The notes under the pieces: model-generated
The model's database searches: none
Told to the model about the DNA's origin: nothing
Seen by the model: the letters and a program-made list of their open reading frames with translations, nothing else
Source of the DNA: Ornithodoros turicata
Taxonomy: Eukaryota; Arthropoda; Arachnida; Ixodida; Argasidae
NCBI RefSeq assembly: GCF_037126465.1
Contig: NC_088201.1
Location: 225,934,016 to 225,998,015 of the forward strand
Direction: 5' to 3'
DNA: 64,000 bases
Made by a program: the position numbers and the translations under genes
In this document: piece after piece, positions 23,708-54,899 of the stretch
Numbering within the stretch: position 1 is the first letter of the stretch
How the letters are laid out: each line of letters begins with the position of its first letter

Positions 23708-23717
23708 AGTAGTAGTG

Positions 23718-23893
23718 TATCAGCTCAAGTAGCCGGCAAGTCACATCTTCGCCTGGACGCCATTAATTAGCAATTAGAGCTAATTGGGACCCCCCACATT
23801 AATCAGGACCCACCAGAGAGTCATTACACTAATTGGGGATCATCTAAGACACGTCCAGACGAAGATGTGAGTTTCCGGCTACTTGAGCTGATA
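23718..23893. repeat. Terminal hairpin, element A left end
   Basis: TATCAGCTCAAGTAGCCGG and about 25 further bases pair with an inverted copy ending at 23893, around about 90 bp of loop that includes GGGACCCCCCACATTAATC. The same hairpin occurs at all four ends of A and B. Confidence 0.85.
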
Positions 23894-24799
23894 AAAATAA
23901 AAAAAACAGGTAGAAAATAAAATAAAAAGATAGAGATAGAGTGGAGAGAAGGAGTTTAGTTGAAGATCAACGACATCGTCTTGAAGAAAGCGGCCCGGAA
24001 AGGCCGCTGGGCGACGGAGCACTGAGGCAGGTTGCAAAGCATCGCAGCACCAGTTCCGCACATCCTGTGACGTCAGCTGTGACGTCATCATGGCATGTCT
24101 GGGCAGGTTAGGACAGCTCTGGACATGCAAGGAGAAAAACACTCGTAATACAGAGGCTGGGAAAGCAAGAGTATGCAAACCATCAATAGCTAACAAGAAA
24201 AAACAATTAGTTACACAACAAATGATCCCACCACAACAGGAGCGCAGAACGATGCGACTGCTCCATCCGAGAGGCAGGCAGAGAACTGACTCGTAATGGT
24301 TTTTCTGCTGTATAAAGCCCCGCAGCTGCATCCCCTAGCGGTTACTTTCTCAACTAATCTCACAACAAAATTATTAAGAATCACGCCAGCGCTACTCCCG
24401 TTCCCAAGGCAGAAGATGATAGAAAATGGCGGGAATGCCCGGACAACAGCAACCAGCACTGGCACGAAAAATCGCAAACAAAGCGGGAACAAAGTTGGCG
24501 AAAGCATTAGTTACACAACAAATCACCTCACCACAGTAGGAGCACAGACCGATGCGACTGCTCTCGTCGACAGCCAGGGATCAAGTGACGACGGAGCGAA
24601 CGACCACACGTCTTCTCCCAACGAGAGCCAGAGGTGGACTGACGTAAGCGCCACTCTACGGGTGCTACGCATGCGCGCGCTCGTAGCGCCCTCTGCGCGC
24701 TCCTACCGCCACCTGCGAGAGGCTAAGAGAGAAGAGCATTCCTGCGCCCTCTTCTCTCGTTGCTCATTGGTCGTGAGGCTAAGTGAGAAGAGCATTCCT

Positions 24800-24869
24800 G
24801 CGCCCCCTGCTGGCAGTTCTCATTGGTCGTGAGGCTAAGTGAGAAGAGCATTCCTGCGCCCCCTGCTGG
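24800..24869 (-). promoter_or_regulatory. Two CTCF-core motifs, element A left arm
   Basis: CCAGCAGGGGGCGC on the minus strand at 24813-24800 and 24869-24856, in two copies of a 56-bp tandem unit that also has a CCAATGAG word. Both match the CTCF core consensus at every defined position. A third lies at 25655-25642. Confidence 0.65.
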
Positions 24870-25641
24870 CAGTTCTCATTGGTCCAGACATCATCCTATT
24901 GTCTCAGGGCTACACTGTTTTTTTTCCACTAATGCTCCTTTGGTCAATCTGCAGTGAAGCCATGGTATGACGTCATCATGCACCTGCGTGGCTCAAGGAC
25001 GCGTGCGCTCTAGGCAGGGGACCTATTATTTATTGAATCACTATCCCAAGATTATTTCCTTTATTCTTCTATAACGATTGCATAGGAAACTATTGCAGAA
25101 GAGCACCATGCATGAAAGCTGATCGAAGGAATTCCAAAGTCTTACTAAATGAGACTTGCAAAAGAACAAAACATCCTAACATGTAACTCCAACAACGGCT
25201 AATAAGAGGACTAGGCACTCAACAAATCAACGCGCGCAGAACTCAGGGCAGCACTATCGTCAAGACAACAATGTTCCTTGTCAAAAGGGAAAAAAAATAC
25301 TAAGCGTCAACAAAGGAAAGCATGCATATCGGGGCATGTCAGGACACGTCAGGACAAATCGTACGACTGCTGGGCAACAGAGGAAAACAAACACTTGAAC
25401 AGAGTGAAAAAGGCACTCACCATCATTTTTCCCATTCACAGCATTCCCTCATTGTAAATCCGCTCGTCACAAAATCCACCTGCATCGTCGAACACCATTC
25501 ACCAGTGACGAACCACACATCCGCACCCCATCAGAGGCAGACAGAACCCCACCGAAGCTACGCTCTTCCACTGACGGCCAACGCCAGGAGCAGAATTTGC
25601 GTGTCGAGACCCGTCAGTGTCCAAGAGAGAAGTGAATCCTT

Positions 25642-25655
25642 GCGCCCCCTGCTGG
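25642..25655 (-). promoter_or_regulatory. CTCF-core motif, element A left arm
   Basis: An exact CCAGCAGGGGGCGC on the minus strand, in the next module, again beside a CCAAT word and a CRE octamer (25672). Confidence 0.65.
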
Positions 25656-27179
25656 CCGTTCTCATTGGTCGTGACGTCATCCTATTGTCTCAGGGCTACC
25701 CTGTTTTTTTCCACTAATGCTCCTTTGGTCAATCTACAATGAAGCCACAGTATGACGTCATCACGCACCTGCGTGGCTCAAGGACGCGTACGCTCTAGAC
25801 AGGGCACCTGTTATTTATTGAATCACTATCCCTAGATTATTTCCTTTATTCTACTATAATGATTGCGTAGGGAACTATTGCAGAAAAACACCATAGACAA
25901 GAGGAGATTGTAGCATTTCATTCCCAAAGTCTTACTGTACAGGGAAAAAAAAAAAAAAGGTTCAGCAAGACATAAAGTCACACACCTGCCCCCCTCGCGG
26001 TTACTCTCTGAACTAAATGAATCGCAAAATTATTAAGATTAGCTCTACTCCCATTCAAGGCAGCACTATCGTCAAGAATATGCCTTGTACAAAAAGAAAA
26101 AAACTACATGTAGAAGGAAAGCATGTCAGAACAAGCCCAGGCATGTCAGCACATGTTTGTCAGACAAGGGGGGAAAAAGCGAAAAGAAACAAAGAAGGAA
26201 ACCAGCATCAAACTATTTCTAAGCACACGCACTCCTCTTATTCAAAAACAGTGCTCATCATAAATCTGCCCAGGACAATACACACTATTTTTCTATTGCC
26301 ACACTTTTTTCCAGTAACGGTCAATGCATTGCTACAGACTGTGTGACGTCATCACATCCTGTCTGAAGAAGAAGAAGACACCGGCAAAGACTCCTATTAT
26401 TTATTGAATCGCAAGATTATTTCCTTTGTCCTACTCTTAATGACATTCATTCTCTCATTAAAATTCAACAAAAAAGCACCCTACATATTAACGATTTTCA
26501 CCCCAAAGGCTCATCATGGTCATTAGAATTACAGTAAACTACCACTGCTCTTTTAAAATAATAATAAGTGAAACCACTCAACATCACCTCCAGGCTTATG
26601 TAATACATGACCCTTTCTATGCTCACACATTCGTTGTCTGAGGCTACACCTGCGAGCAAAAAAGGCGCGGAAGCCGAGTGGGCAAAGTTCCATTCGCGCA
26701 TTGCGAGCATAAAAACGGGAAAAGCCTGGGAGCAAAGTTCTATTCGCGCATTCCAAAGCACAAGACAGAACGCCTTTACGGGAACACGATAGCATTCCTA
26801 TACTATATTAATGATTATTGCATTGCAGTTTAGAAAAACTACAACTAAACTATAATTTTAGGAGCCCAACTTTCTATGGAAACTATAATTGCCCTATTAC
26901 TTGGATCGCTACTAATGAAGCGCTCCAATTTTTTCTCTCTTCCCATTTCAGCCTTGTCATGCAGGGAAGCAGACTCATATCCAAAATAATTAATTTACAC
27001 TGAGGGTGCCGTGCTTCAGGAATTCCTATCCTGCGCTCAGATGCAAGCATTTCTTTACGGATACAGCTGACTTCCTCAACATATCGAACACCCAACAAAA
27101 TCAAACAAACAACCCCACTTCCACTGGTAGAACACTATTTAGCTTTTACGCAGGAGGCTTTCTTCTACATAAAAAGTAG

Positions 27180-27765
27180 AGAAAATAAGAAAAGAGCAGC
27201 AAAAAATTGCGTGCACTTTTGCTTGACTTAAAAGACCTGAAGCATATGCCAATAAACCAAGAAAAGACACTCATGTCTGGTATCTGATAGTGCCACATAC
27301 ACAGACGCATTGCCCTTGCGTAAAGAAAGCACAGGACAGGGATACACAAATATCCTTAGGTGAGCAGGGAAAAGGCTTAAGACCTCAGGTCACCACACAT
27401 CGCCACGCGGCTAGCACAACATGACACCAACAACATACTAGCGGCGGGAAGAACTGCAACACTGCTAAAAATAAGAAAAGAGCAGCAAAAAATTGCGTGC
27501 ACTTTTGCTTGACTTAAAAAACCTGAAGCATATGCCAATAAACCAAGAAAAAGACACTCATGTCTGGTATCTGATAGTGCCACATACACAGACGCATTGC
27601 CCTTGCGTAAAGAAAGCACAGGACAGGGATACACAAATATCCTTAGGTGAGCAGGGAAAAGGCTTAAGACCTCAGGTCACCACACATCGCCACGCGGCTA
27701 GCACAACATGACACCAACAACATACTAGCGGCGGGAAGAACTGCAACACTGCTAAACAAGTCAGA
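27180..27765. repeat. Near-identical 295-bp tandem duplication, A left arm
   Basis: Two adjacent copies share the stretch from AAAATAAGAAAAGAGCAGC to the GCGGGAAGAACTGCAACACTGCTAAA end. Element B has one copy (about 41410-41705). The mirror pair in A lies at about 33590-34180. Confidence 0.8.
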
Positions 27766-29160
27766 CATGCCACGATGACGTCACAAATCAGGGGGAAAAA
27801 AAGCACACGCATGCACGCACAGAGGACAACGCATTAAACACACGGAGCGCTCAGGAATAATCGTAGCGTTACCGCACATTGCTACGAAGCTCAACGTCTA
27901 ACACAAGACGGCAGCAACAAGATATTAAAGGATAAAAATTGCAACACTACTGAACAAGTCCAGACATGCGACATCGCATACAAAACACTGCTCATCGGAG
28001 AAAAGGCCTAAGCCCGCGGCGGATCATCATAGAGCATACACAACTTCATTTTTCTATTTCGCGTAAACTAAACGCGGTCTGCTAGGAAAACGACGTACAA
28101 ATTTTCTTAAGGAGCAGAGAAATATATCTACTCCGTGCTCAGATACCAGCATTTCTGCTCAAAAATCTGCAAAATTAAGCACTGCTTACTTCGTCAAGAT
28201 ATCGAACAAAATCAAACAAACAACCCCACTTCCACTGGTACAACACTATTCAGCTTTTACGCAGGAGGCTTTGTTCTACATAAAAAGTAGAGAAAATAAG
28301 AAAAGAGCAGCGAAAAATTACACGCATTTGCGCTCCAATAGCTGTAACTGCAAGAAACCGTAGCGCACGCCAATAAACTGAGAAAAAGACACTCATGTCT
28401 GGTATCTGATAGTGCCACATACACAACCGCATTACCCTTGCGTAAAGAAAGCACAGGACAGGGATACACAAATTTCCTTAGGTGAGCAGGGAAAAGGCTT
28501 AAGACCTCAGGTCACCTCACATCGCCACGCGGCTAGCACAACATGACACCAACAACATACTAGCGGCGGGAAGAACTGCAACACTGCTAAACAAGTCCAG
28601 ACATGCCACGATGACGTCACAAATCAGGGGAAAAAAAGCACACGCACACACGCACAGAGTACAACGCATTAAACACACGATGCGCTCAGGAATAATCGTA
28701 GCGTTACCGCACATCGCTACGAAGCTCAACGTCTAACACAAGACGGCAGCAACAAGATATTAAAGGATAAAAATTGCAACACTACTGAACAAGTCCAGAC
28801 ATGCGACATCGCATACAAAACACTGCTCATCGGAGAAAAGGCCTAAGCCCGCGGCGGATCATCATCATAGAGCATACACAACCTCATTTTTCTATTTCGC
28901 GTAAACTAAACGCGGTCTGCTTGGAAAACGACGTACAAATTTTCTTCAGGAGCAGAGAAATATATCTACTCCGTGCTCAGATACCAGCATTTCTGCTCAA
29001 AAACCTGCAAAATTAAGCACTGCTTACTTCGTCAAGATATCGAACACCCAACAAAATCAAACAAACAACCCCACTTCCACTGGTAGAACACTATTCAGCT
29101 TTTACGCAGGAGGCTTTCTTCTACATAAAAAGTAGAGAAAATAAGAAAAGAGCAGCGAAA
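27763..29160. repeat. 836-bp tandem duplication, A left arm
   Basis: The unit beginning CAGACATGCCACGATGACGTC at 27763 starts again at about 28598 and runs with few changes to about 29160. Element B has one copy, which explains much of its shorter length. The right arm of A holds the mirror of the pair (about 32200-33600). Confidence 0.8.
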
Positions 29161-30620
29161 TATTACACGCACTTTTGCTCGCATAGCTATAAGAGAAAAA
29201 AAAATAAATAAAAGAACGACGCACACGCTAATAAACTGTGACAAAGACACCCATTTCTGCTATCAGATAATTATTGCATAATGCTAAATACTCATTTGCA
29301 TTGGCCCTGCGTGAAGAAAGCACAGGACAGGGATACACAATCTATCTTAAGCGAGCACGGAAAGTCACTTCTACTCGAACAGCTTAATACCATAAAGTCT
29401 GAATTTTTGCAAAGAAAATAAAGCTTGAACAACGTTACGAAGGTGACAGACACATACTAACAAAAAACAAACGAATTCCATTCTCATGAACTCTCCTCTG
29501 CCGAGCGGCTTTCTCCTGCTCTACCTGGATGCTGACTTTTTCCCCCCTCACCTACATTCTGAGTAAAAGCAGTGACAGAAGAAAAGAACCGCGAAAAATT
29601 ACACGCATTTGTGTCACAGGACAGGGATACACAAATTTCCTTAAGTGAGCAGGGAAAAGGCTTAAGTCGTACCGCTCAGGAATAATCGGAGAATCACCGC
29701 TTATGGCTAGGCGGATAGCGCCTGAACAGCGCTACGAACGTGACAGATACATACTAACAAACAAACAAACAAACAACAGCAGGACCGGCGTCGAGCACTC
29801 ATAAAATACCCTGCCCAAAACAAAGACTTCACCAGGTTCGCGAGGCAATTCCATTAAAAACGCTCGTCCTATCCTACAGATAGCAATGCAAACGCGACTG
29901 CCCTTATTTTTTAAAACCACTATTCCACGCAATAGTACATAAATGTATCACTCGTGTCACACGAAAAGGCAAACACTTACCTGTCAAGTGGGGTCCCAGC
30001 GCGTGCGCGCGCGCACACACACTAACATTTTCACATTCACAAACACAAAGTCTATTTTCACAACCACATAAATCCATATTATTTATCAGGTCAATAATTA
30101 TCCTACCATCGCCAAAAGACGGTACAGACATGTATGCTTGAGGAATGAGGACAATCGGTCCTCGTTCCGGATGTAATAGGATATCGCCACTCGGCCGGCG
30201 CGAACCAATAAAGAAAGAAAGGAATGCATGTTCGCTACGAAGAAAACGGTGCCGTGCTTCTACGCAGCGATCATTATACAGACGCGTAAATGTGAACATC
30301 ATTCGCTACACACTGTAGCTCTCATCATTTTTAAACCAAACCAAACCGTGTTCATAGGTCTTCACTAAATAGGTGAACCGATAATGACTCCAAATAAAAT
30401 CAAATAAAATAATCATTCCAGCATCGCTGGCTGCAAGCTTGGGTACCCAACAGAGCAGCGCGCTCCCATCAACACGCCTTGGGCTGACCTTACACACCCG
30501 AAGCCTTTTCTGAATACATTCTGCCGGCGCTGGAATAAAAGATTTATCGCGAGGGTACTACGATGTCAGCTCTGTTGCTGTTTAAGTGATAAAACAGTGC
30601 GCCCGAACCGCGAAGCGCGC

Positions 30621-30745
30621 GGGCCCGGTCTCGCGGTTTGGACTCGCGACGCGCGCGCGCGGACCCGGTCTCGCGGTTTGGACTCGCGACGCGCGCGATT
30701 CCCCGCGGCGCGAGCGCAACGCGGACCCGTTCTCGCGGTTTGGAC
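30621..30745. repeat. GC-rich loop at the centre of element A
   Basis: Between the arms lie three copies of a unit of about 38 bp containing TCTCGCGGTTTGGAC and GCGACGCGCGCG. The arm ends read GTGATAAAACAGTGCGCCC and its inverse. CpG content is extreme against the AT-rich arms. Confidence 0.8.
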
Positions 30746-32743
30746 GCGCGCTTCGCGGTTCGGGCGCACTGTTTTATCACTTAAACAGCAACAGAGCTGA
30801 CATCGTAGTACCCTCGCGATAAATCTTTTATTCCAGCGCCGGCAGAATGTATTCAGAAAGGCTTCGGGTGTGTAAGGTCAGCCCAAGGCGTGTTGATGGG
30901 AGCGCGCTGCTCTGTTGGGTACCCAAGCTTGCAGCCAGCGATGCTGGAATGATTATTTTATTTGATTTTATTTGGAGTCATTATCGGTTCACCTATTTAG
31001 TGAAGACCTATGAACACGGTTTGGTTTGGTTTAAAAATGATGAGAGCTACAGTGTGTAGCGAATGATGTTCACATTTACGCGTCTGTATAATGATCGCTG
31101 CGTAGAAGCACGGCACCGTTTTCTTCGTAGCGAACATGCATTCCTTTCTTTCTTTATTGGTTCGCGCCGGCCGAGTGGCGATATCCTATTACATCCGGAA
31201 CGAGGACCGATTGTCCTCATTCCTCAAGCATACATGTCTGTACCGTCTTTTGGCGATGGTAGGATAATTATTGACCTGATAAATAATATGGATTTATGTG
31301 GTTGTGAAAATAGACTTTGTGTTTGTGAATGTGAAAATGTTAGTGTGTGTGCGCGCGCGCACGCGCTGGGACCCCACTTGACAGGTAAGTGTTTGCCTTT
31401 TCGTGTGACACGAGTGATACATTTATGTACTATTGCGTGGAATAGTGGTTTTAAAAAATAAGGGCAGTCGCGTTTGCATTGCTATCTGTAGGATAGGACG
31501 AGCGTTTTTAATGGAATTGCCTCGCGAACCTGGTGAAGTCTTTGTTTTGGGCAGGGTATTTTATGAGTGCTCGACGCCGGTCCTGCTGTTGTTTGTTTGT
31601 TTGTTTGTTAGTATGTATCTGTCACGTTCGTAGCGCTGTTCAGGCGCTATCCGCCTAGCCATAAGCGGTGATTCTCCGATTATTCCTGAGCGGTACGACT
31701 TAAGCCTTTTCCTGCTCACTTAAGGAAATTTGTGTATCCCTGTCCTGTGACACAAATGCGTGTAATTTTTCGCGGTTCTTTTCTTCTGTCACTGCTTTTA
31801 CTCAGAATGTAGGTGAGGGGGGAAAAAGTCAGCATCCAGGTAGAGCAGGAGAAAGCCGCTCGGCAGAGGAGAGTTCATGAGAATGGAATTCGTTTGTTTT
31901 TTGTTAGTATGTGTCTGTCACCTTCGTAACGTTGTTCAAGCTTTATTTTCTTTGCAAAAATTCAGACTTTATGGTATTAAGCTGTTCGAGTAGAAGTGAC
32001 TTTCCGTGCTCGCTTAAGATAGATTGTGTATCCCTGTCCTGTGCTTTCTTCACGCAGGGCCAATGCAAATGAGTATTTAGCATTATGCAATAATTATCTG
32101 ATAGCAGAAATGGGTGTCTTTGTCACAGTTTATTAGCGTGTGCGTCGTTCTTTTATTTATTTTTTTTCTCTTATAGCTATGCGAGCAAAAGTGCGTGTAA
32201 TATTTCGCTGCTCTTTTCTTATTTTCTCTACTTTTTATGTAGAAGAAAGCCTCCTGCGTAAAAGCTGAATAGTGTTCTACCAGTGGAAGTGGGGTTGTTT
32301 GTTTGATTTTGTTGGGTGTTCGATATCTTGACGAAGTAAGCAGTGCTTAATTTTGCAGGTTTTTGAGCAGAAATGCTGGTATCTGAGCACGGAGTAGATA
32401 TATTTCTCTGCTCCTGAAGAAAATTTGTACGTCGTTTTCCAAGCAGACCGCGTTTAGTTTACGCGAAATAGAAAAATGAGGTTGTGTATGCTCTATGATG
32501 ATGATCCGCCGCGGGCTTAGGCCTTTTCTCCGATGAGCAGTGTTTTGTATGCGATGTCGCATGTCTGGACTTGTTCAGTAGTGTTGCAATTTTTATCCTT
32601 TAATATCTTGTTGCTGCCGTCTTGTGTTAGACGTTGAGCTTCGTAGCGATGTGCGGTAACGCTACGATTATTCCTGAGCGCATCGTGTGTTTAATGCGTT
32701 GTACTCTGTGCGTGTGTGCGTGTGCTTTTTTTCCCCTGATTTG

Positions 32744-35700
32744 TGACGTCATCGTGGCATGTCTGGACTTGTTTAGCAGTGTTGCAGTTCTTCCCGCCGC
32801 TAGTATGTTGTTGGTGTCATGTTGTGCTAGCCGCGTGGCGATGTGAGGTGACCTGAGGTCTTAAGCCTTTTCCCTGCTCACCTAAGGAAATTTGTGTATC
32901 CCTGTCCTGTGCTTTCTTTACGCAAGGGTAATGCGGTTGTGTATGTGGCACTATCAGATACCAGACATGAGTGTCTTTTTCTCAGTTTATTGGCGTGCGC
33001 TACGGTTTCTTGCAGTTACAGCTATTGGAGCGCAAATGCGTGTAATTTTTCGCTGCTCTTTTCTTATTTTCTCTACTTTTTATGTAGAACAAAGCCTCCT
33101 GCGTAAAAGCTGAATAGTGTTGTACCAGTGGAAGTGGGGTTGTTTGTTTGATTTTGTTCGATATCTTGACGAAGTAAGCAGTGCTTAATTTTGCAGATTT
33201 TTGAGCAGAAATGCTGGTATCTGAGCACGGAGTAGATATATTTCTCTGCTCCTTAAGAAAATTTGTACGTCGTTTTCCTAGCAGACCGCGTTTAGTTTAC
33301 GCGAAATAGAAAAATGAAGTTGTGTATGCTCTATGATGATCCGCCGCGGGCTTAGGCCTTTTCTCCGATGAGCAGTGTTTTGTATGCGATGTCGCATGTC
33401 TGGACTTGTTCAGTAGTGTTGCAATTTTTATCCTTTAATATCTTGTTGCTGCCGTCTTGTGTTAGACGTTGAGCTTCGTAGCAATGTGCGGTAACGCTAC
33501 GATTATTCCTGAGCGCTCCGTGTGTTTAATGCGTTGTCCTCTGTGCGTGCATGCGTGTGCTTTTTTTCCCCCTGATTTGTGACGTCATCGTGGCATGTCT
33601 GGACTTGTTTAGCAGTGTTGCAGTTCTTCCCGCCGCTAGTATGTTGTTGGTGTCATGTTGTGCTAGCCGCGTGGCGATGTGTGGTGACCTGAGGTCTTAA
33701 GCCTTTTCCCTGCTCACCTAAGGATATTTGTGTATCCCTGTCCTGTGCTTTCTTTACGCAAGGGCAATGCGTCTGTGTATGTGGCACTATCAGATACCAG
33801 ACATGAGTGTCTTTTTCTTGGTTTATTGGCATATGCTTCAGGTTTTTTAAGTCAAGCAAAAGTGCACGCAATTTTTTGCTGCTCTTTTCTTATTTTTAGC
33901 AGTGTTGCAGTTCTTCCCGCCGCTAGTATGTTGTTGGTGTCATGTTGTGCTAGCCGCGTGGCGATGTGTGGTGACCTGAGGTCTTAAGCCTTTTCCCTGC
34001 TCACCTAAGGATATTTGTGTATCCCTGTCCTGTGCTTTCTTTACGCAAGGGCAATGCGTCTGTGTATGTGGCACTATCAGATACCAGACATGAGTGTCTT
34101 TTCTTGGTTTATTGGCATATGCTTCAGGTCTTTTAAGTCAAGCAAAAGTGCACGCAATTTTTTGCTGCTCTTTTCTTATTTTCTCTACTTTTTATGTAGA
34201 AGAAAGCCTCCTGCGTAAAAGCTAAATAGTGTTCTACCAGTGGAAGTGGGGTTGTTTGTTTGATTTTGTTGGGTGTTCGATATGTTGAGGAAGTCAGCTG
34301 TATCCGTAAAGAAATGCTTGCATCTGAGCGCAGGATAGGAATTCCTGAAGCACGGCACCCTCAGTGTAAATTAATTATTTTGGATATGAGTCTGCTTCCC
34401 TGCATGACAAGGCTGAAATGGGAAGAGAGAAAAAATTGGAGCGCTTCATTAGTAGCGATCCAAGTAATAGGGCAATTATAGTTTCCATAGAAAGTTGGGC
34501 TCCTAAAATTATAGTTTAGTTGTAGTTTTTCTAAACTGCAATGCAATAATCATTAATATAGTATAGGAATGCTATCGTGTTCCCGTAAAGGCGTTCTGTC
34601 TTGTGCTTTGGAATGCGCGAATAGAACTTTGCTCCCAGGCTTTTCCCGTTTTTATGCTCGCAATGCGCGAATGGAACTTTGCCCACTCGGCTTCCGCGCC
34701 TTTTTTGCTCGCAGGTGTAGCCTCAGACAACGAATGTGTGAGCATAGAAAGGGTCATGTATTACATAAGCCTGGAGGTGATGTTGAGTGGTTTCACTTAT
34801 TATTATTTTAAAAGAGCAGTGGTAGTTTACTGTAATTCTAATGACCATGATGAGCCTTTGGGGTGAAAATCGTTAATATGTAGGGTGCTTTTTTGTTGAA
34901 TTTTAATGAGAGAATGAATGTCATTAAGAGTAGGACAAAGGAAATAATCTTGCGATTCAATAAATAATAGGAGTCTTTGCCGGTGTCTTCTTCTTCTTCA
35001 GACAGGATGTGATGACGTCACACAGTCTGTAGCAATGCATTGACCGTTACTGGAAAAAAGTGTGGCAATAGAAAAATAGTGTGTATTGTCCTGGGCAGAT
35101 TTATGATGAGCACTGTTTTTGAATAAGAGGAGTGCGTGTGCTTAGAAATAGTTTGATGCTGGTTTCCTTCTTTGTTTCTTTTCGCTTTTTCCCCCCTTGT
35201 CTGACAAACATGTGCTGACATGCCTGGGCTTGTTCTGACATGCTTTCCTTCTACATGTAGTTTTTTTCTTTTTGTACAAGGCATATTCTTGACGATAGTG
35301 CTGCCTTGAATGGGAGTAGAGCTAATCTTAATAATTTTGCGATTCATTTAGTTCAGAGAGTAACCGCGAGGGGGGGCAGGTGTGTGACTTTATGTCTTGC
35401 TGAACCTTTTTTTTTTTTTCCCCTGTACAGTAAGACTTTGGGAATGAAATGCTACAATCTCCTCTTGTCTATGGTGTTTTTCTGCAATAGTTCCCTACGC
35501 AATCATTATAGTAGAATAAAGGAAATAATCTAGGGATAGTGATTCAATAAATAACAGGTGCCCTGTCTAGAGCGTACGCGTCCTTGAGCCACGCAGGTGC
35601 GTGATGACGTCATACTGTGGCTTCATTGTAGATTGACCAAAGGAGCATTAGTGAAAAAAAACAGGGTAGCCCTGAGACAATAGGATGACGTCACGACCAA

Positions 35701-37302
35701 TGAGAACGGCCAGCAGGGGGCGCAAGGATTCACTTCTCTCTTGGACACTGACGGGTCTCGACACGCAAATTCTGCTCCTGGCGTTGGCCGTCAGTGGAAG
35801 AGCGTAGCTTCGGTGGGGTTCTGTCTGCCTCTGATGGGGTGCGGATGTGTGGTTCGTCACTGGTGAATGGTGTTCGACGATGCAGGTGGATTTTGTGACG
35901 AGCGGATTTACAATGAGGGAATGCTGTGAATGGGAAAAATGATGGTGAGTGCCTTTTTCACTCTGTTCAAGTGTTTGTTTTCCTCTGTTGCCCAGCAGTC
36001 GTACGATTTGTCCTGACGTGTCCTGACATGCCCCGATATGCATGCTTTCCTTTGTTGGCGCTTAGTATTTTTTTTCCCTTTTGACAAGGAACATTGTTGT
36101 CTTGACGATAGTGCTGCCCTGAGTTCTGCGCGCGTTGATTTGTTGAGTGCCTAGTCCTCTTATTAGCCGTTGTTGGAGTTACATGTTAGGATGTTTTGTT
36201 CTTTTGCAAGTCTCATTTAGTAAGACTTTGGAATTCCTTCGATCAGCTTTCATGCATGGTGCTCTTCTGCAATAGTTTCCTATGCAATCGTTATAGAAGA
36301 ATAAAGGAAATAATCTTGGGATAGTGATTCAATAAATAATAGGTCCCCTGTCTAGAGCGCACGCGTCCTTGAGCCACGCAGGTGCATGATGACGTCATAC
36401 CGTGGCTTCACTGCAGATTGACCAAAGGAGCATTAGTGGAAAAAAACAGTGTAGCCCTGAGACAATAGGATGATGTCTGGACCAATGAGAACTGCAAGCA
36501 GGGGGCGCAGGAATGCTCTTCTCACTTAGCCTCACGACCAATGAGAACTGCCAGCAGGGGGCGCAGGAATGCTCTTCTCACTTAGCCTCACGACCAATGA
36601 GCAACGAGAGAAGAGGGCGCAGGAATGCTCTTCTCTCTTAGCCTCTCGCAGGTGGCGGTAGGAGCGCGCAGAGGGCGCTACGAGCGCGCGCATGCGTAGC
36701 ACCCGTAGAGTGGCGCTTACGTCAGTCCACCTCTGGCTCTCGTTGGGAGAAGACGTGCGGTCGTTCGCTCCGTCGTCACTTGATCCCTGGCTGTCGACGA
36801 GAGCAGTCACATCGGTCTGCGCTCCTACTGTGGTGAGGAGATTTGTTGTGTAACTAATGCTTTCGTCAACTTTGTTCCCGCTTTGTTTGCGATTTTCGTG
36901 CCCGTGCACGTCGGGTGCTGGTTGCTGTTGTCCGGGCATTCCCGCCATTTTCTATCATCTTCTGCCTTGGGACCGGGAGTAGCGCTGGCGTGATTCTTAA
37001 TAATTTTGTTGTGAGATTAGTTGAGAAAGTAACCGCTAGGGGGTGCAGCTGCGGGGTTTATACAGGACAAAAACCATTACGAGTCAGTTTCTGCCTGCCT
37101 CTCGGATGGAGCAGTCGCATGGTTCTGCGCTCCTGTTCTGGTGGGCTCATTTGTTGTGTAACTAATTTTTTTGTTGTTAGCTATTGATGGTTTGCATACT
37201 CTTGCTTTCCCAGCCTCTGTATTACGCGTGTTTTTCTCCTTGCATGTCCAGAGCTGTCCTAACTTGCCCAGACATGCCATGATGACGTCACAGCTGACGT
37301 CA
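32744..37302 (-). promoter_or_regulatory. CRE octamer array, element A right arm
   Basis: Exact TGACGTCA begin at 32744, 33580, 35013, 35605, 35686, 36390, 37283 and 37295, the mirror of the left-arm set. Confidence 0.7.
35710..36564 (+). promoter_or_regulatory. CTCF-core motifs, element A right arm
   Basis: Exact CCAGCAGGGGGCGC at 35710-35723 and 36551-36564, and a one-base variant (GCAAGCAGGGGGCGC) near 36494. They are in the opposite orientation to those in the left arm, so the two sets point away from the centre. Confidence 0.65.
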
Positions 37303-37647: not shown

Positions 37648-37666
37648 CATTACTACTCCCAGGTAG

Positions 37667-37766
37667 NNNNNNNNNNNNNNNNNNNNNNNNNNNNNNNNNN
37701 NNNNNNNNNNNNNNNNNNNNNNNNNNNNNNNNNNNNNNNNNNNNNNNNNNNNNNNNNNNNNNNNNN
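37667..37766. other. Assembly gap of exactly 100 N
   Basis: A run of exactly 100 N is the usual placeholder for a gap of unknown size, so the true distance between elements A and B is not known. Confidence 0.95.
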
Positions 37767-37948
37767 ATTATTTTCAAACTGTAGGCAATTCTTTTTATTT
37801 TCGTGTGTAGACTATACACGCGTGTATGCAGTATTTGCGACAAGAGTGTATCCCTGATCAACTTTGCACAATTACACTTTCTATCGTTGAATTATTTTCA
37901 AACTGTAGGCAATTCTTTTTATTTTCGTGTGTAGACTATACACGCGTG
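37767..37948 (+). repeat. Spacer between A and B with a 60-bp direct repeat
   Basis: ATTATTTTCAAACTGTAGGC through ACTATACACGCGTG occurs at 37767-37828 and again at 37889-37948, a tandem duplication with a unit of about 121 bp. It has no relation to gag. Both open frames that cross the N run are meaningless. Confidence 0.75.
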
Positions 37949-37958
37949 AGTAGTAATG

Positions 37959-39900: not shown

Positions 39901-42584
39901 CCGTTCTCATTGGTCGTGACGTCATCCTATTGTCTCAGGGCTACCCTGTTTTTTTTTCCACTAATGCTCCTTTGGTCAATCTACAATGAAGCCATGGTAT
40001 GACGTCATCATGCACCTGCGTGCTCAAGGACGCGTGCGCTCTAGGCAGGGACCTATTATTATTGAATCACTATCCCTAGATTATTTCTTTATTCTTCTAT
40101 AACGATTGCATAGGAAACTATGCAGAAGAGCACCATAGACATGAGGTAGATTGTAGCATTTCATTCAAAGTCTACTGTACAGGAAAAAAAAAAAAGGTTC
40201 AGCAAGACTTAAAGTCACACACCTGTCCTCCTCGCGGTTACTCTCTGAACTAAATGAATCGCAAAATTATTAAGAATAGCTCTACTCCCATTCAAGGCAG
40301 CACTATCGTCAAGAATATGCCTTGTTCAAAAAGAAAAAAACTACATGTAGAAGGAAAGCATGTCAGAACAAGCCCAGGCATGTCAGCACATGTTTGTCAG
40401 ACAAGGGGGGAAAAAGCGAAAAGAAACAAAGAAGGAAACCAGCATCAAACTATTTCTAAGCACACGCACTCCTCTTATTCAAAAACAGTGCTCATCATAA
40501 ATCTGCCCAGGACATACACACTATTTTTCTATTGCCCACACTTTTTCCAGTAACGGTCAATGCATTGCTACAGACTGTGTGACGTCATCACATCCTGTCT
40601 GAAGAAGAACAGCGGCAAAGACTCCTATTATTTATTGAATCGCAAGATTATTTCCTTTGTCCTACTCTTAATGACATTCATTCTCTCATTAAAATTCAAC
40701 AAAAAAGGCACCCTACATATTAACGATTTTCACCCCAAAGGCTCATCATGGTCATTAGAATTACAGTAAACTACCACTGCTCTTTTAAAATAATAAGTGA
40801 GACCACTCAACATCACCTCCAGGCTTATGTAATACATGACCCTTTCTATGCTCACACATTCGTTGTCTGAGGCTACACCTGCGAGCAAAAAAGGCGCGGA
40901 AGCCGGGTGGGCAAAGTTCCATTCGCGCATTGCGAGCATAAAGGCGGGAAAAGCCTGGGAGCAAAGTTCTTATTCGGCGCATTCCAAAGCACAAGACAGA
41001 ACGCCTTTACGGGAACACGATAGCATTCCTATACTATATTAATGATTTTGCATTGCAGTTTAGAAAAAACTACGACTAAACTATAATTTTAGGACCCAAC
41101 TTTCTATGGAAACTATAATTGCCCATTACTTGGATCGCTACTAATGAAGCGCTCCAATTTTTCTCTCTTCCCATTTCAGCCTTGTCATGCAGGGAAGCAG
41201 ACTCATATCCAAAATAATTAATTTACACTGAGGGTGCCGTGCTTCAGGAATTCCTATCCTGCGCTCAGATGCAAGCATTTCTTCACGGATACCTTTAACA
41301 GCTGACTTCCTCAACATATCGAACACCCAACAAAATCAAACAAACAACCCCACTTCCACTGGTAGAACACTATTTAGCTTTTCGCAGGAGGCTTTCTTCT
41401 ACATAAAAAGTAGAGAAAATAAGAAAAGAGCAGCAAAAAATTGCGTGCACTTTTGCTTGACTTGAAAAACCTGAAGCATATGCCAATAACCAAGAAAAAG
41501 ACACTCATGTCTGGTATCTGATAGTGCCACATACACAGACGCATTGCCCTTGCGTAAAGAAAGCACAGGACAGGGATACACAAATATCCTTAGGTGAGCA
41601 GGGAAAAGGCTTAAGACCTCAGGTCACCACACATCGCCACGCGGCTAACACAACATGACACCAACAACATACTAGCGGCGGGAAGAACTGCAACACTGCT
41701 AAACAAGTCCAGACATGCCACGATGACGTCACAAATCAGGGAAAAAAAAGCACACGCACGCACGCACAGAGTACAACGCATTAAACACACGGTGCGCTCA
41801 GGAATAATCGTAGCGTTACCGGCACGTCGCTACGAAGCTCAACGTCTAACACAAGAACGACAGCAACAAGATATTAAAGGGTAAATAAATTGCAAACACT
41901 ACTGAACAAGTCCAGACATGCGACATCGCATACAAAACACTGCTCATCGGGGAAAAGGGCTAAGCCCTGCGGCGGATCATCATAGAGCATACACAATTTC
42001 ATTTTTCTATTTCGGCGTAAACTAAACGCGGTCTGCTTGGAAAACGACGTACAAATTTTCTTAAGGAGCAGAGAAATATATCTACTCCGTGCTCAGATAC
42101 CAGCATTTCTGCTCAAAAACCAGCAAAATTAAGCACTGCTTACTTCGGTCAAGATATCGAACACCCAACAAAATCAAACAAACAACCCCACTTCCACTGA
42201 TAGAACACTATTCAGCTTTTACGCAGGAGGCTTTCTTCTACATAAAAGAAGAGAAAATAAGAAAAGGAGCAGAAAAAAATTTATATTACCCGCTCGCATA
42301 GCTATAAGAGAAAAAAATAAATAAAAGAACGACGCACACGCTAATAAACTGTGAGAAAGACCCCCATTTCTGCTATCAGATAATTATGGCATAATGCAAA
42401 ATACTCATTTGCATTGTCCCTTCGTGAAGAAAAGCACAGGACAGGGATACACAATTTATCTTAAGCGAGCAGGAAAGTCACTTCTACTCAACAGCTTAAT
42501 ACCATAAAGTCTGATTTTTGCAAAGCAAATAAAGCTGAACAGCGCTAGCGAACGTGACAGGGCACATACTAACAAACAAACAAA

Positions 42585-43015
42585 CACTTCTTCGAGTCTG
42601 TATTATCTTAAAAAATAACGAAAGCACTCAAAAAAAATCAAATCGGCTAGGTAGCCTACCAGACGTTGTGCCTTAAAGTTGGCTGCATGCAATGCGCGGA
42701 AGCATGCTGTGAAGCCAACTTGCGGTTTTGCTGGATGCACATGAAGTCAGATTCCCAATTGGAAATCGCGCCTAAGGACGTGCCAAAACGTGGAATTTTC
42801 GCAAAATTAATCTCAATACCTGGAATTTCTGTTCATTTTAGCGGGAATGCTGGCGCTTGTGCTCTATTATTCGAAATTTTCGAATATTCGAATTTCTCGA
42901 TTATCAAATTTTCGAATACGAATAGGGTTCGAATATCACAATATTCCAACGGATATCCGAAATTTCGAATATTCGTACACCTCTAGTGAATACTGACACT
43001 CATCAACATATAACA
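42585..43015 (-). mobile_element. Insert with hAT-like ATTCGAATATTCG end, B left arm
   Basis: Absent from element A. It ends in dense ATTCGAATATTCG words and CGTACACCTCTA, which read outward is TAGAGGTGTACGAATATTC, a hAT-like terminus. The other side (near ACACTTCTTCGAGTCTG) shows no matching inverted repeat, so it is partial or joined to other DNA. Confidence 0.55.
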
Positions 43016-44164
43016 AAAAAAACAAACAAAACAAATCCCTTTCTGATGAACTCTCCTCTGCCGAGTGGGCTTTCTCCTGCTCTACCTGGATGCTGACTTT
43101 TCCTCCCCTCACCAACATTATGAGTAAAAGCAGTGAAAGAAGAAAAGAACCGCGAAAAATTACACGCATTTGTGTCACAGGACAGGGATACACAAATTTC
43201 CTTAAGTGAGCAGGGAAAAGGCTTAAGTCGTACCGCTCAGGAATAATCGGAGAATCGCCGCTTATCGCTAGGCGGATAGCGCTTGAAACAGCGCTACGAA
43301 CGTGACAGATACATACTAACAAACAAACAAACAAACAACAGCAGGACCGGCGTCGGGCACTCATAAAATACCCTGCCCAAAACAAAGACTTCACCAGGTT
43401 CGCGAGGCAATTCCATTAAAACGCTCGTCCTATCCTACAGATAGCAATGCAAACGCGACTGCCCTTATTTTTTAAAACCACTATTTCACGCAATAGTACA
43501 TAAATGTATCACTCGTGTCACACGAAAAGGCAAACACTTACCTGTCAAGTGGGGTCCCAGCGCGTGCGCACGCGCACACACACACACACACACACTAACA
43601 TTTTCACACTCACAAACACAAAGTCTATTTTCACAACCACATAAATCCATATTATTCCTCAGGTCAATAATTATCCTGCCATCGCCAAAAGACGGCACAG
43701 ACATATATGCTTACGCAAGACAATCGGTCCTCGTTCCGGATGTAATAGGATATATCGCCACTCCGGCCGGCGCGAACCAATAAAGAAAGAAAGGAATGCA
43801 TGTTCGCTACGAAGAAAACGGTGCCGTGCTTCTACGCAGCGATCATTATAGAGACGCGTAAATGTGTACATCATTCGCTACACACTGTAGCTCTAATCAT
43901 TTTTAAACCAAACCAAACCGTGTTCATAGGTCTTCACTAAATAGGTGAGCCGATAATGACTCAAAATAAAATAAAATAAAATAATCATTCATCCATCGCT
44001 GGCCGCAAGCTTGGGTACCCCAACAGAGGCAGCGCGCTCCTATCAACACGCCTTGGGGCTGACCTTACACACCGAAGCCTTTCTGAATACAATCTTGCCG
44101 GCGCTGGAATAAAAGATTTATCGCCGAGGGTACACGATGTCAGCTCTGTTGCTGTTTAAGTGAT

Positions 44165-44304
44165 AAAACAGTGCGCCCGAACCGCGAAGCGCACGCGCGG
44201 GCCCGGTCTCGCGGTTTGGACTCGCGACGCGCGCGATTCCCCGCGGCGCGAGCGCAACGCGGACCCGTTCTCGCGGTTTGGACGCGCGCGATTGCCCGAA
44301 GTAA
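44165..44304. repeat. GC-rich centre of element B
   Basis: Two copies of the TCTCGCGGTTTGGAC unit remain. The right side is cut: arm sequence resumes with CCTATGAACACGGTTTGG, so about 230 bp next to the centre is missing from the right arm. Confidence 0.75.
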
Positions 44305-45199
44305 AGCCTATGAACACGGTTTGGTTTGGTTTAAAAAATGATAGAGCTACAGTGTGTTAGCGAATGTGTTCACATTACGCGTCTCTATAATGATCGCTGC
44401 GTAGAAGCACGGCACCGTTTTCTTCGTAGCGAACATGCATTCCTTTCTTTCTTTATTGGTTCGGCGCCGGCCGAGTGGCGATATCCTATTACATCCGGAA
44501 CGAGGACCGATTGTCTTGCGTAAGCATATATGTCTGTGCCGTCTTTTGGCGATGGCAGGCTAATTATTGACCTGAGGAATAATATGGATTTATGTGGTTG
44601 TGAAAATAGACTTTGTGTTTGTGAGTGTGAAAATGTTAGTGTGTCGTGCGCGTGCGCACGCGCTGGGACCCCACTTGACAGGTAAGTGTTTGCCTTTTCG
44701 TGTGACCACGGAGTGATACATTTATGTACTATTGCGTGAAATAGTGGTTTTAAAAAATAAGGGCAGTCGCGTTTGCATTGCTATCTGGAGGATAGGACGA
44801 GCGTTTTTAATGGAATTGCCTCGCGAACCTGGTGAAGTCTTGTTTTGGGCAGGGTATTTTATGAGTGCCCGACGCCGGTCCTGCTGTTGTTTGTTTGTTT
44901 GTTTGTTAGTATGTATCTGTCCACGTTCGTAGCGCTGTTCAAGCGCCTATCCGCCTAGCGATAAGCGGCGATTCTCCGATTATTCCTGAGCGGTACGACT
45001 TAAGCCTTTTCCCTGCTCACTTAAGGAAATTTGTGTATCCCTGTCCTGTGACACAAATGCGTGTAATTTTTCGCGGTTCTTTCTTCTTTCACTGCTTTTA
45101 CTCATAATGTTGGTGAGGGGGGGAAAAGTCAGCATCCAGGTAGAGCAGGAGAAAGCCGCTCGACAGAGGAGAGGTTCATCAGAAAGGGATTTGTTTGTT

Positions 45200-45645
45200 T
45201 GTTATTTTGTTATATGTTGATGAGTGTCAGTATTCACTAGAGGTGTACGAATATTCGAAATTTCGGATATCGTTGGAATATTGTTGATATTCGAACCCTA
45301 TTCGTATTCGAAAATTTGATAATCGAGAAATTCGAATATTCGAAAATTTCGAATAATAGAGCACAAGCGCCAGCATTCCCGCTAAAATGAACAGAATTCC
45401 AGGTATTGAGATTAATTTTGCGAAAAATTCACGTTTGGCACGTCCTTAGCGCGATTTCCAATTGGAATCTGACTTCATGTGCATCCAGCAAAACCGCAAG
45501 TTGGCTTCACAGCATGCTTCCGCGCATTGCATGCAGCCAACTTTAAGGCACAACGTCTGGTAGGCTACCTAGCCGATTTGATTTTTTTTGTGTGCTTTCG
45601 TTATTTTTTAAAGATAATACAGACTCGAAGAAGTGTTTGTTTGTT
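45200..45645 (+). mobile_element. Insert with hAT-like end, B right arm
   Basis: Inverted counterpart of 42585-43015 at the mirrored place in the other arm, beginning CTAGAGGTGTACGAATATTCG, with a few differences. Confidence 0.55.
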
Positions 45646-48316
45646 TGTTAGTATGTGCCTGTCACGTTCGTAGCGCTGTTCAAGCTTTATTTGCTTTGCA
45701 AAAATTCAGACTTTATGGTATTAAGCTGCTGGAGTAGAAGTGACTTTCCCTGCTCGCTTAAGATAAATTGTGTATCCCTGTCCTGTGCTTTCTTCACGAA
45801 GGGACAATGCAAATGAGTATTTAGCATTATGCAATAATTATCTGATAGCAGAAATGGGTGTCTTTCTCACAGTTTATTAGCGTGTGCGTCGTTCTTTTAT
45901 TTATTTTTTCTCTTATAGCTATGCGAGCAAAAGTGCGTGTAATTTTTTCTGCTCTTTTCTTATTTTCTCTACTTTTATGTAGAAGAAAGCCTCCTGCGTA
46001 AAAGCTGAATAGTGTACTATCAGTGGAAGTGGGGTTGTTTGTTTGATTTTGTTGGGTGTTCGATATCTTGACGAAGTAAGCAGTGCTTAATTTTGCAGGT
46101 TTTTGAGCAGAAATGCTGGTATCGGAGCACGGAGTAGATATATTTCTCTGCTCCTTAAGAAAATTTGTACGTCGTTTTCCAAGCAGACCGCGTTTTAGTT
46201 ACGCGAAATAGAAAAATTAAGTTGTGTATGCTCTATGATGATCCGCCGCGGGCTAAGGCCTTTTCCCCGATGAGCAGTGTTTTGTATGCGATGTCGCATG
46301 TCTGGACTTGTTCAGTAGTGTTGCAATTTTTATCCTTTATATCTTGTTGCTGCCGTCTTGTGTTAGACGTTGAGCTTCGTAGCAATGTGCGGTAACGCTA
46401 CGATTATTCCTCAGCGCTCCGTGTGTTTAATGCGTTGTCCTCTGTGCGTGCATGCGTGTGCTTTTTTTCCCCCTGATTTGTGACGTCATCGTGGCATGTC
46501 TGGACTTGTTTAGCAGTGTTGCAGTTCTTCCCGCCGCTAGTATGTTGTTGGTGTCATGTTGTGTTAGCCGCGTGGCGATGTGTGGTGACCTGAGGTCTTA
46601 AGCCTTTTCCCTGCTCACCTAAGGATATTTGTGTATCCCTGTCCTGTGCTTTCTTTACGCAAGGGCAATGCGTCTGTGTATGTGGCACTATCAGATACCA
46701 GACATGAGTGTCTTTTTCTTGGTTTATTGGCATATGCTTCAGGTTTTTCAAGTCAAGCAAAAGTGCACGCAATTTTTTGCTGCTCTTTTCTTATTTTCTC
46801 TACTTTTTATGTAGAAGAAAGCCTCCTGCGTAAAAGCTAAATAGTGTTCTACCAGTGGAAGTGGGGTTGTTTGTTTGATTTTGTTGGGTGTTCGATATGT
46901 TGAGGAAGTCAGCTGTTAAAGGTATCCGTGAAGAAATGCTTGCATCTGAGCGCAGGATAGGAATTCCTGAAGCACGGCACCCTCAGTGTAAATTAATTAT
47001 TTTGGATATGAGTCTGCTTCCCTGCATGACAAGGCTGAAATGGGAAGAGAGAAAAAATTGGAGCGCTTCATTAGTAGCGATCCAAGTAATAGGGCAATTA
47101 TAGTTTCCATAGAAAGTTGGGTTCCTAAAATTATAGTTTAGTCGTAGTTTTTCTAAACTGCAATGCAATAATCATTAATATAGTATAGGAATGCTATCGT
47201 GTTCCCGTAAAGGCGTTCTGTCTTGTGCTTTGGAATGCGCGAATAGAACTTTGCTCCAGGCTTTTCCCGCCTTTATGCTCGCAATGCGCGAATGGAACTT
47301 TGCCCACCCGGCTTCCGCGCCTTTTTTGCTCGCAGGTGTAGCCTCAGACAACGAATGTGTGAGCATAGAAAGGGTCATGTATTACATAAGCCTGGAGGTG
47401 ATGTTGAGTGGTCTCACTTATTATTTTAAAAGAGCAGTGGTAGTTTACTGTAATTCTAATGACCATGATGAGCCTTTGGGGTGAAAATCGTTAATATGTA
47501 GGGTGCTTTTTTGTTGAATTTTAATGAGAGAATGAATGTCATTAAGAGTAGGACAAAGGAAATAATCTTGCGATTCAATAAATAATAGGAGTCTTTGCCG
47601 CTGTCTTCTTCAGACAGGATGTGATGACGTCACACAGTCTGTAGCAATGCATTGACCGTTACTGGAAAAAAGTGTGGCAATAGAAAAATAGTGTGTATTG
47701 TCCTGGGCAGATTTATGATGAGCACTGTTTTTGAATAAGAGGAGTGCGTGTGCTTAGAAATAGTTTGATGCTGGTTTCCTTCTTTGTTTCTTTTCGCTTT
47801 TTCCCCCCTTGTCTGACAAACATGTGCTGACATGCCTGGGCTTGTTCTCACATGCTTTCCTTCTACATGTAGTTTTTTTCTTTTTGAACAAGGCATATTC
47901 TTGACGATAGTGCTGCCTTGAATGGGAGTAGAGCTATTCTTAATAATTTTGCGATTCATTTAGTTCAGAGAGTAACCGCGAGGAGGACAGGTGTGTGACT
48001 TTATGTCTTGCTGAACCTTTTTTTTTTTCCTGTACAGTAAGACTTTGGGAATGAAATGCTACAATCTCCTCTTGTCTATGGTGCTCTTCTGCAATAGTTT
48101 CCTATGCAATCGTTATAGAAGAATAAAGGAAATAATCTAGGGATAGTGATTCAATAAATAATAGGTCCCCTGCCTAGAGCGCACGCGTCCTTGAGCCACG
48201 CAGGTGCATGATGACGTCATACCATGGCTTCATTGTAGATTGACCAAAGGAGCATTAGTGGAAAAAAACAGGGTAGCCCTGAGACAATAGGATGACGTCA
48301 CGACCAATGAGAACGG

Positions 48317-49172
48317 CCAGCAGGGGGCGCAAGGATTCACTACTCTCTTGGACACTGACGGGTCTCGACACGCAAATTCTGCTCCTGGCGTTGGCCGTCA
48401 GTGGAAGAGCGTAGCTTCGGTGGGGTTCTGTCTGCCTCTGATGGGGTGCGGATGTGTGGTTCGTCACTGGTGAATGGTGTTCGACGATGCAGGTGGATTT
48501 TGTGAAGAGCGGATTTACAATGAGGGAATGCTGTGAACGGGAAAAATGATGGTGAGTGTCTTTTTCACTCTGTTCAAGTGTTTGTTTTCCTCTGTTGCCC
48601 AGCAGTCGTACGATTTGTCCTGACGTGTCCTGACATGCCCCGATATGCATGCTTTCCTTTGTTGACGCTTAGTATTTTTTCTCTTTTGACAAGGAACATT
48701 GTTGTCTTGACGATAGTGCTGCCCTGAGTTCTGCGCGCGTTGATTTGTTGAGTGCCTAGTCCTCTTATTAGCCGTTGTTGGAGTTACATGTTAGGATGTT
48801 TTGTTCTTTTGCAAGTCTCATTTAGTAAGACTTTGGAATTCCTTCGATCAGCTTTCATGCATGGTGCTCTTCTGCAATAGTTTCCTATGCAATCGTTATA
48901 GAAGAATAAAGGAAATAATCTTGGGATAGTGATTCAATAAATAATAGGTCCCCTGCCTAGAGCGCACGCGTCCTTGAGCCACGCAGGTGCATGATGACGT
49001 CATACCATGGCTTCACTGCAGATTGACCAAAGGAGCATTAGTGGAAAAAAAAAACAGTGTAGCCCTGAGACAATAGGATGATGTCTGGACCAATGAGAAC
49101 TGCCAGCAGGGGGCGCAGGAATGCTCTTCTCACTTAGCCTCACGACCAATGAGAACTGCCAGCAGGGGGCGC
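48317..49172 (+). promoter_or_regulatory. CTCF-core motifs, element B right arm
   Basis: Exact CCAGCAGGGGGCGC at 48317-48330, 49103-49116 and 49159-49172, each beside CCAATGAGAAC. Confidence 0.65.
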
Positions 49173-50077
49173 AGGAATGCTCTTCTCACTTAGCCTCACG
49201 ACCAATGAGCAACGAGAGAAGAGGGCGCAGGAATGCTCTTCTCTCTTAGCCTCTCGCAGGTGGCGGTAGGAGCGCGCAGAGGGCGCTACGAGCGCGCGCA
49301 TGCGTAGCACCCGTAGAGTGGCGCTTACGTCAGTCCACCTCTGGCTCTCGTTGGGAGAAGACGTGTGGTCGTTCGCTCCGTCGTCACTTGATCCCTGGCT
49401 GTCGACGAGAGCAGTCGCATCGGTCTGCGCTCCTACTGTGGTGAGGTGATTTGCTGTGTAACTAATGCTTTCGCCAACTTTGTTCCCGCTTTGTTTGCGA
49501 TTTTCGTGCCAGTGCTGGTTGCTGTTGTCCGGGCATTCCCGCCATTTTCTATCATCTTCTGCCTTGGGAACGGGAGTAGCGCTGGCGTGATTCTTAATAA
49601 TTTTGTTGTGAGATTAGTTGAGAAAGTAACCGCTAGGGGATGCAGCTGCGGGGCTTTATACAGCAGAAAAACCATTACGAGTCAGTTCTCTGCCTGCCTC
49701 TCGGATGGAGCAGTCGCATCGTTCTGCGCTCCTGTTGTGGTGGGATCATTTGTTGTGTAACTAATTGTTTTTTCTTGTTAGCTATTGATGGTTTGCATAC
49801 TCTTGCTTTCCCAGCCTCTGTATTACGAGTGTTTTTCTCCTTGCATGTCCAGAGCTGTCCTAACCTGCCCAGACATGCCATGATGACGTCACAGCTGACG
49901 TCACAGGATGTGCGGAACTGGTGCTGCGATGCTTTGCAACCTGCCTCAGTGCTCCGTCGCCCAGCGGCCTTTCCGGGCCGCTTTCTTCAAGACGATGTCG
50001 TTGATCTTCAACTAAACTCCTTCTCTCCACTCTATCTCTATCTTTTTATTTTATTTTCTACCTGTTTTTTTATTTTT

Positions 50078-50253
50078 TATCAGCTCAAGTAGCCGGAAAC
50101 TCACATCTTCGTCTGGACGTGTCTTAGATGATCCCCAATTAGTGTAATGACTCTCTGGTGGGTCCTGATTAATGTGGGGGGTCCCAATTAGCTCTAATTG
50201 CTAATTAATGGCGTCCAGGCGAAGATGTGACTTGCCGGCTACTTGAGCTGATA
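50078..50253. repeat. Terminal hairpin, element B right end
   Basis: Same structure as at the other three ends. It is followed by TACACTACTACT and the target duplication. Confidence 0.85.
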
Positions 50254-50263
50254 CACTACTACT

Positions 50264-50269
50264 GCTAAC
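50264..50269 (+). other. Target-site duplication GCTAAC, right
   Basis: Matches 23702-23707. It restores the gag frame at this side of the insert. Confidence 0.85.
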
Positions 50270-54887: not shown

Positions 54888-54899
54888 CTTAACACTATC

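Follow-up and report, generated by a model that had tools for sequence, protein, structure and literature searches.

How can giant palindromes without recognisable genes spread through an animal genome? The question is raised by a 64,000-nucleotide stretch of the soft tick Ornithodoros turicata (assembly GCF_037126465.1, contig NC_088201.1, here C1, positions 225,934,016 to 225,998,015 of the forward strand; the window), in which two foldbacks, P1 (23708-37657, 13,950 bp) and P2 (37949-50263, 12,315 bp), delimited by self-comparison and tip motif, interrupt the gag gene of a retroelement. The initial annotation, made from the window sequence, had described them as coding-poor palindromes of about 14 and 12.3 kb; their inverted arms are 98.3% identical over 14.0 kb and 97.2% identical over 6.0 kb, respectively. 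We consider it likely that they represent a non-autonomous family of O. turicata, whose ends are those of a Polinton subfamily of the same genome and which is copied by snap-back through the Polinton polymerase.

Ends and target-site duplications

All four tips of P1 and P2 read AGTAGTA (23708 +, 37657 -, 37949 +, 50263 -). The window contains eight matches to this motif, compared with 5.1 expected by chance, and the motif by itself is therefore no evidence. At the left end of P1 (23708-23893, + strand) the (AGT)2 tip is combined with a terminal hairpin, whose 42-bp stem starts at base 11 and for which a DNA fold of -51.2 kcal/mol was calculated (z -11.6, equalled by 0 of 200 shuffles). The same stem was found in other ends. 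In a set of 40 ends including Polinton ends (19 distinct; the left end of P2, two bases shorter, is omitted) 93.6% of the stem cells pair, while sliding the stem partner lowers the pairing to 28-40%; four pairs were changed on both sides, compared with 2.2 in shuffles, of which 16 of 500 reach four. The unpaired centres are GC-rich in P1 (30509-30856) and partly GC-rich in P2 (43862-44374). Tips, hairpin and centres thus are as the initial annotation described them.

An exact 21-base end sequence has 352 matches in the genome (169 +, 183 -) and its reversed control none. The first 100 listed matches form 43 inverted pairs and 14 singles, with 35 of the 43 pairs spanning 10-16 kb (median 13.6 kb). 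For a second end variant 263 matches were found, of which the 68 listed on C1 form 24 pairs with a median of 14.0 kb. A 21-base stem of the centre has 688 exact matches; among 100 listed, 34 inverted pairs and 32 singles were counted, and 27 of these pairs lie 148 or 152 bp apart. Extrapolated from part of C1, roughly 450 centres would be present in the genome. The family hence appears to comprise several hundred copies, many of them palindromes of roughly 12-15 kb without recognisable genes.

The insertion scars were read at the 14 pairs with both ends among the 40 best-scored matches and at eight others from the list of 43. Not counting the outer pair of the window, all 22 are flanked by exact 6-bp target-site duplications (TSDs); the interiors are 16 foldbacks, four Polintons and two that were left unread. 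The ends of P1 are 90-94% identical over about 266 bp to both ends of three Polintons, and a fourth Polinton has one end with 91% identity. The closest of the other foldback copies reaches 96% over 270 bp against one of the three. Beyond this shared terminal part the similarity between Polintons and foldbacks is almost nil; the Polintons at C1:103428080, 184560453 and 195152335 have only their outermost part in common with the foldback. The initial annotation had named duplications of another length, or ends of a known non-Polinton transposon with its own transposase, as findings that would speak against a Polinton origin; the length is invariant at 6 bp, and the ends are those of the resident Polintons. 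It had also treated 6-bp duplications and AG starts as Polinton traits, in agreement with vertebrate Mavericks, for which (AGT)2//(ACT)2 ends with a 6-bp TSD are the commonest end motif (PMC8097293). The P1/P2 family accordingly has the 6-bp TSD, the (AGT)2//(ACT)2 ends with inverted terminal repeats, and an end sequence common to gene-bearing elements of the same genome.

The genes of a Polinton were not seen in the palindromes. P1 and P2 together hold 19 stop-to-stop open reading frames (ORFs) of at least 120 aa, of which 18 were scanned against Pfam (the 19th, 31060-31461, repeats the scanned ORF 29904-30305). No match fell below 0.001 and one was at 0.007; polymerase, integrase, any other Polinton gene and transposase were all without a match in the scanned ORFs, which hence lack the set of an autonomous Polinton (pPolB, integrase, protease, ATPase, capsid) at the level of Pfam. 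For transposase this negative covers the ORFs of P1 and P2, the interiors of other copies lying outside the scan. When 11 frames of at least 80 aa from the outermost 4.2 kb of the arm were compared across six copies, none was in frame and stop-free in all six; the most conserved one (arm 2310-2636) was so in five of them. Searches of the window with Rfam at gathering thresholds and with a tRNA scan gave no matches.

Resident Polintons as candidate helpers

The Polintons which share these ends carry ORFs for enzymes that were not found in the palindromes. The copy at C1:195152335 has ORFs for pPolB (DNA_pol_B_2, 3e-19), for an integrase (rve, 8e-10; chromodomain 2e-4, below the curated cut-off) and for an ATPase resembling Pox_A32 (0.004, below the cut-off). 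The copy at 103428080 gave matches to an integrase (rve, 2e-9) and, at the cut-off, to an adenain-type protease (Peptidase_C5, 2e-4), while the ORFs of 184560453 were judged by eye only. Two ORFs that are capsid-like by size gave no capsid match (one no match at all, one a weak match to YukD). The six identified Polintons measure 12.4, 12.9, 15.4, 15.4, 16.9 and 22.8 kb.

A genome search with the integrase scored 119 of 6,664 candidates, all stop-free and nearly all 96-98% identical. The expected end was read at three integrase copies that lie beyond the listed elements; at two of them it has the AGTAGTA tip and resembles the end of the candidate helper at 84-86%. Overall, the ends reached through other integrase copies are 79-89% identical to P1 or the helper where they can be aligned (at two loci of the three, with no match obtained at the other), and the foldbacks are therefore tied to one Polinton subfamily.

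The interval C1:159306515-159335411 contains both an integrase match and a foldback (159306687-159320229), the latter known by its ends and centre stems. Its size is that of a Polinton plus one foldback, and the foldback apparently entered a Polinton 172 bp inside its end. At C1:140034549-140036811 a 2.3-kb element was observed that consists of Polinton termini only and an N gap.

Arms and centres of the foldbacks

Within one copy the outer 3.7 kb of the two arms differ at 1-40 sites, compared with 8-198 between copies, which corresponds to identities of 98.9-99.97% within (nine copies, including the possibly chimeric P1 and P2) versus 94.5-99.8% between copies. The left and right arms are sisters in all nine copies, with tree supports of 0.87-1.0. 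Of the variable columns, 312 have both arms agreeing in all seven copies used and 44 do not, as arm-specific changes are expected after insertion.

Over a width of 2 kb we read 23 centres among the 43 listed pairs, namely those of the first 20 pairs in the list and of its last three. Eighteen are foldback, four are Polinton and one shows Polinton termini only with an N gap. Among the foldback centres 11 have a standard loop, which is 127 bp long in seven and 83-207 bp in the others and occurs in either orientation, four are short and mirror-symmetric, and three are without a close palindromic centre; 15 of the 18 thus have the form of a snap-back genome, with one end duplicated into a palindrome. 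The four symmetric short copies, of 3,648, 8,388, 8,769 and 10,118 bp, have spacers of 0, 1, 19 (47 with longer seed words) and 66, respectively, and make up four of the seven foldbacks read that have a non-standard centre. Independent breakpoints would leave a spacer of at most 66 in 2% of deletions, for a threshold that was chosen when the data were already known. Over the 2 kb read, the 3,648-bp copy is a perfect spacerless palindrome, and it has a TSD of its own, CAGTTC. By eye, the turn of the 8,388-bp copy lies on TAAGCA-C-TGCTTA, a quasi-palindrome of 13 bases in the longer arm, and an inverted repeat as good as this is found at only 5 of 6,760 arm positions. The turn of the 3,648-bp copy lies on GTGTC/GAGAC with four of five pairs, a grade reached by 125 of 6,760 arm positions. 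For one further end pair, of 5,532 bp (C1:193608774-193614305), 401 bases at the centre showed no match to the foldback, to Polinton pieces or to themselves.

One palindrome or two at the gag locus

The interrupted gene consists of a 5' part (23292-23707, + strand) and a 3' part (50270-50849, + strand; Retrotrans_gag, 4.5e-8). Directly outside both outer tips the sequence reads GCTAAC (23702-23707, within gag and with no strand assigned, and 50264-50269), which is absent at the inner tips; when the gag flanks are fused through a single GCTAAC, an unbroken frame results (...EPMRLTVVQTK...). The 6-bp copy of the gag target, which the initial annotation had taken as the mark of a transposition event, is hence present on both sides. 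Its description of two inserted palindromes fared less well: the palindromic sequence is real, and the gag locus probably holds one palindrome only.

P1 and P2 are separated by nine bases, an assembly gap of 100 N (37667-37766) and, by eye, short tandem-repeat DNA adjoining the gap (37767-37948). The right end of P1 (37472-37657, - strand) is of a different subtype from its left end, while the right end of P2 (50078-50263, - strand) has the subtype of the left end of P1. Compared over the outer 1.2 kb, P1-left is separated from P2-right by four mismatches and one gap base, and from P1-right by 35 mismatches and 41 gap bases. The inner flank of P1, CCCAGG, is unlike that of P2, CGCGTG, and neither P1 nor P2 has a duplication of its own. 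Two separate palindromes are doubtful because the outer ends agree, the two ends of P1 differ and the inner flanks lack the duplication seen at all 22 other pairs. The inner ends probably stem from other copies through switching during assembly, a contig chimera that is not proven. P1-left and P2-left differ little as well (8 mismatches, 17 gap bases), and the tree groups P1-left with P1-right, both of which run counter to a single palindrome.

A snap-back model and its alternatives

In protein-primed replication whole single strands are displaced, and synthesis can restart by jumping back on short terminal repeats. A linear palindrome would be copied from its (AGT)2 ends by the protein-primed polymerase of a Polinton; these tips fit a restart by jumping back. 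Being self-complementary, the displaced strand would snap back on itself, and repair of the resulting duplex would homogenise the arms. Where the strand folds at a short inverted repeat, priming would yield a new, shorter palindrome with two good ends, and the retroviral-type Polinton integrase, acting in trans, would insert the product, leaving the 6-bp scar that such an integrase would account for. Snap-back of the displaced strand would explain the arm identity, the symmetric shortening, the turn at a short inverted repeat and the loops in either orientation. Towards an endogenous virus, the foldback would then act like a satellite or like a defective genome of the snap-back, self-complementary kind. 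Of the proposal in the initial annotation, a non-autonomous foldback family mobilised by Polinton machinery, the family and its Polinton ends and scars were found; from these we infer the mobilisation itself.

Several observations weigh against this model. In three of the 18 foldbacks the centres are unpaired over 1,282, 1,138 and 925 bp (the last weakly placed), as expected from a plain deletion. That the quasi-palindrome at the turn of the 3,648-bp copy proved to be of a common grade lowers our confidence in the snap-back reading. For two of the four short palindromes, no source of the turn-point was recognised in the arm sequences compared. Without their ends, the arms are not Polinton sequence, apart from one stretch of 110-148 bp at 77% in two of eight copies and a few matches of 27-67 bp, so that the model does not explain where they come from. 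Of 24 integrase matches on the part of C1 covered by the list, no more than four fall within intervals bounded by these ends; most Polintons of the tick thus end differently. Two of 16 foldbacks with a TSD have discordant ends (8 and 14 of 186 positions), which also counts against a single palindrome at the gag locus. An extrachromosomal form, a terminal protein and mobility were not seen, and chromosomal gene conversion could likewise keep the arms alike.

Such conversion is the basis of the best-surviving alternative, in which the Polinton integrase moves existing palindromes by cut and paste and gene conversion keeps the arms similar afterwards, as in the palindromes of Y chromosomes. Long inverted arms are known to undergo gene conversion, the arms agree within copies, and some centres are asymmetric, all as this explanation would have it. 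Cut and paste alone, however, yields no new palindrome with zero spacer, both tips and its own TSD, as seen in the 3,648-bp copy, and one turn-point sits on a rare quasi-palindrome. We regard this explanation as unlikely.

Far less probable is an assembly artefact, with false palindromes from chimeric reads or collapsed arms. P1 and P2 invite such a suspicion with their discordant ends, N gap and missing individual TSDs, and between ~2.4 and 7.2 kb inward the P1 arms are free of mismatches. Read chimeras would not be expected to produce inverted ends flanked on both sides by exact duplications at 16 foldback loci, however, nor centre stems that recur as inverted pairs at the two spacings given above, and an artefact is likely for the doubling of P1 and P2 only. 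FB and Galileo elements use other transposases, of the P or MuDR type, and leave TSDs of 9 and 7 bp. That a foldback transposon of such another superfamily, with its own transposase, converged on 6-bp duplications is scarcely credible; FB and Galileo have likewise very long, internally repetitive inverted arms (PMC3573991), but the ends shared with resident Polintons already largely contradict this origin.

A second foldback and other features of the window

The left of the window up to 10942 is filled by a second AGTAGTA foldback, which the initial annotation had overlooked. It is 11.6 kb long and starts 645 bp left of the window (C1:225933371), its ends beginning AGTAGTATAGAG; both ends read AGTAGTATAGAGATAGACTG, of the AGTAGTA type, and TACAGT is duplicated outside them (right copy 10943-10948). 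CCAAT-rich repeats were observed near the ends. Within its unpaired centre (4777-5651) lies an ORF (4847-5251, + strand) that is 52.5% identical over 118 aa to an ORF of a resident Polinton (E 8e-28); a protein search found no relative at 0.001 among 31 candidates, and PHROGs gave none at 0.1. Compared with the first family in the window, the second foldback showed no match at 1e-6 and no end similarity beyond 14 bases. Judged from these comparisons, giant foldbacks with Polinton-type ends have arisen, or diverged beyond recognition, at least twice. An ORF at 2633-3307 resembles by eye the GIY-YIG end of a Penelope-like element and had no Pfam match.

The arms of P1 and P2 carry a CTCF-like motif, GCCAGCAGGGGGCGCA. 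It occurs 11 times (24801, 24857, 25643, 35710, 36551, 39047, 39103, 39888, 48317, 49103 and 49159), in a uniform direction relative to the arm; three tandem 56-bp units with such motifs are found at 24719-24884, and similar arrays at 36480, 38965 and 49088. No occurrence was seen in the window flanks or in seven Polinton pieces, and each of eight foldback pieces has one to three.

The window also holds a pPolB fragment (52217-54944), which we rejected as a possible helper, as it is 46% identical to the helper-type pPolB and belongs to another lineage. It lies on the minus strand in two frames and adjoins gag and protease ORFs; to its right no other Polinton ORF match was found within the window.

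Relation to known systems and implications

Adintovirus integrations are known from hard ticks (PMC10675110). P1 and P2 resemble Polinton/Maverick (Adintoviridae-like) elements in the (AGT)2//(ACT)2 ends, the 6-bp TSD and the ends of the resident copies, and differ from them in that no Polinton gene was found and the whole element is palindromic. In the literature searched, with Repbase, Dfam and most subscription papers outside the search, no description of a palindromic or non-autonomous Polinton/Maverick family was found, and the excerpted text of a review of giant transposons describes none (PMC6431247).

In incomplete adenovirus particles and in the pGKL plasmids of yeast, one end is duplicated into a palindrome during protein-primed replication; these palindromes are transient products, whereas the tick foldbacks are a repeat family of several hundred copies. 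Adeno-associated virus (AAV) uses Rep and hairpin ends. Subgenomic double-stranded snapback genomes accompany this virus (PMC8235507) and are likewise self-complementary; in the tick, the helper would be an integrating element with a polymerase of the protein-primed type, and the copies reside in the host genome. More tentatively, and with rather less confidence than in the snap-back model, we propose that the foldbacks may be true satellites of an endogenous animal virus, with linear self-complementary genomes that pPolB replicates from protein-primed ends with a snap-back in each cycle, possibly limited to ~12-15 kb by packaging in Polinton capsids, and arisen at least twice, the second foldback having retained a single Polinton-like gene in its loop. 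The size range of the end pairs is the sole hint at helper replication or packaging.

If this proposal is true, a satellite and its helper would form a pair inside one animal genome. With several hundred copies the model can be tested by sequencing alone. The foldbacks put long self-complementary DNA, and perhaps RNA, into the tick genome. Polinton replication is mostly inferred from gene content; if the shape of the palindromes records snap-back synthesis, they would constitute a fossil record of Polinton replication in an animal.

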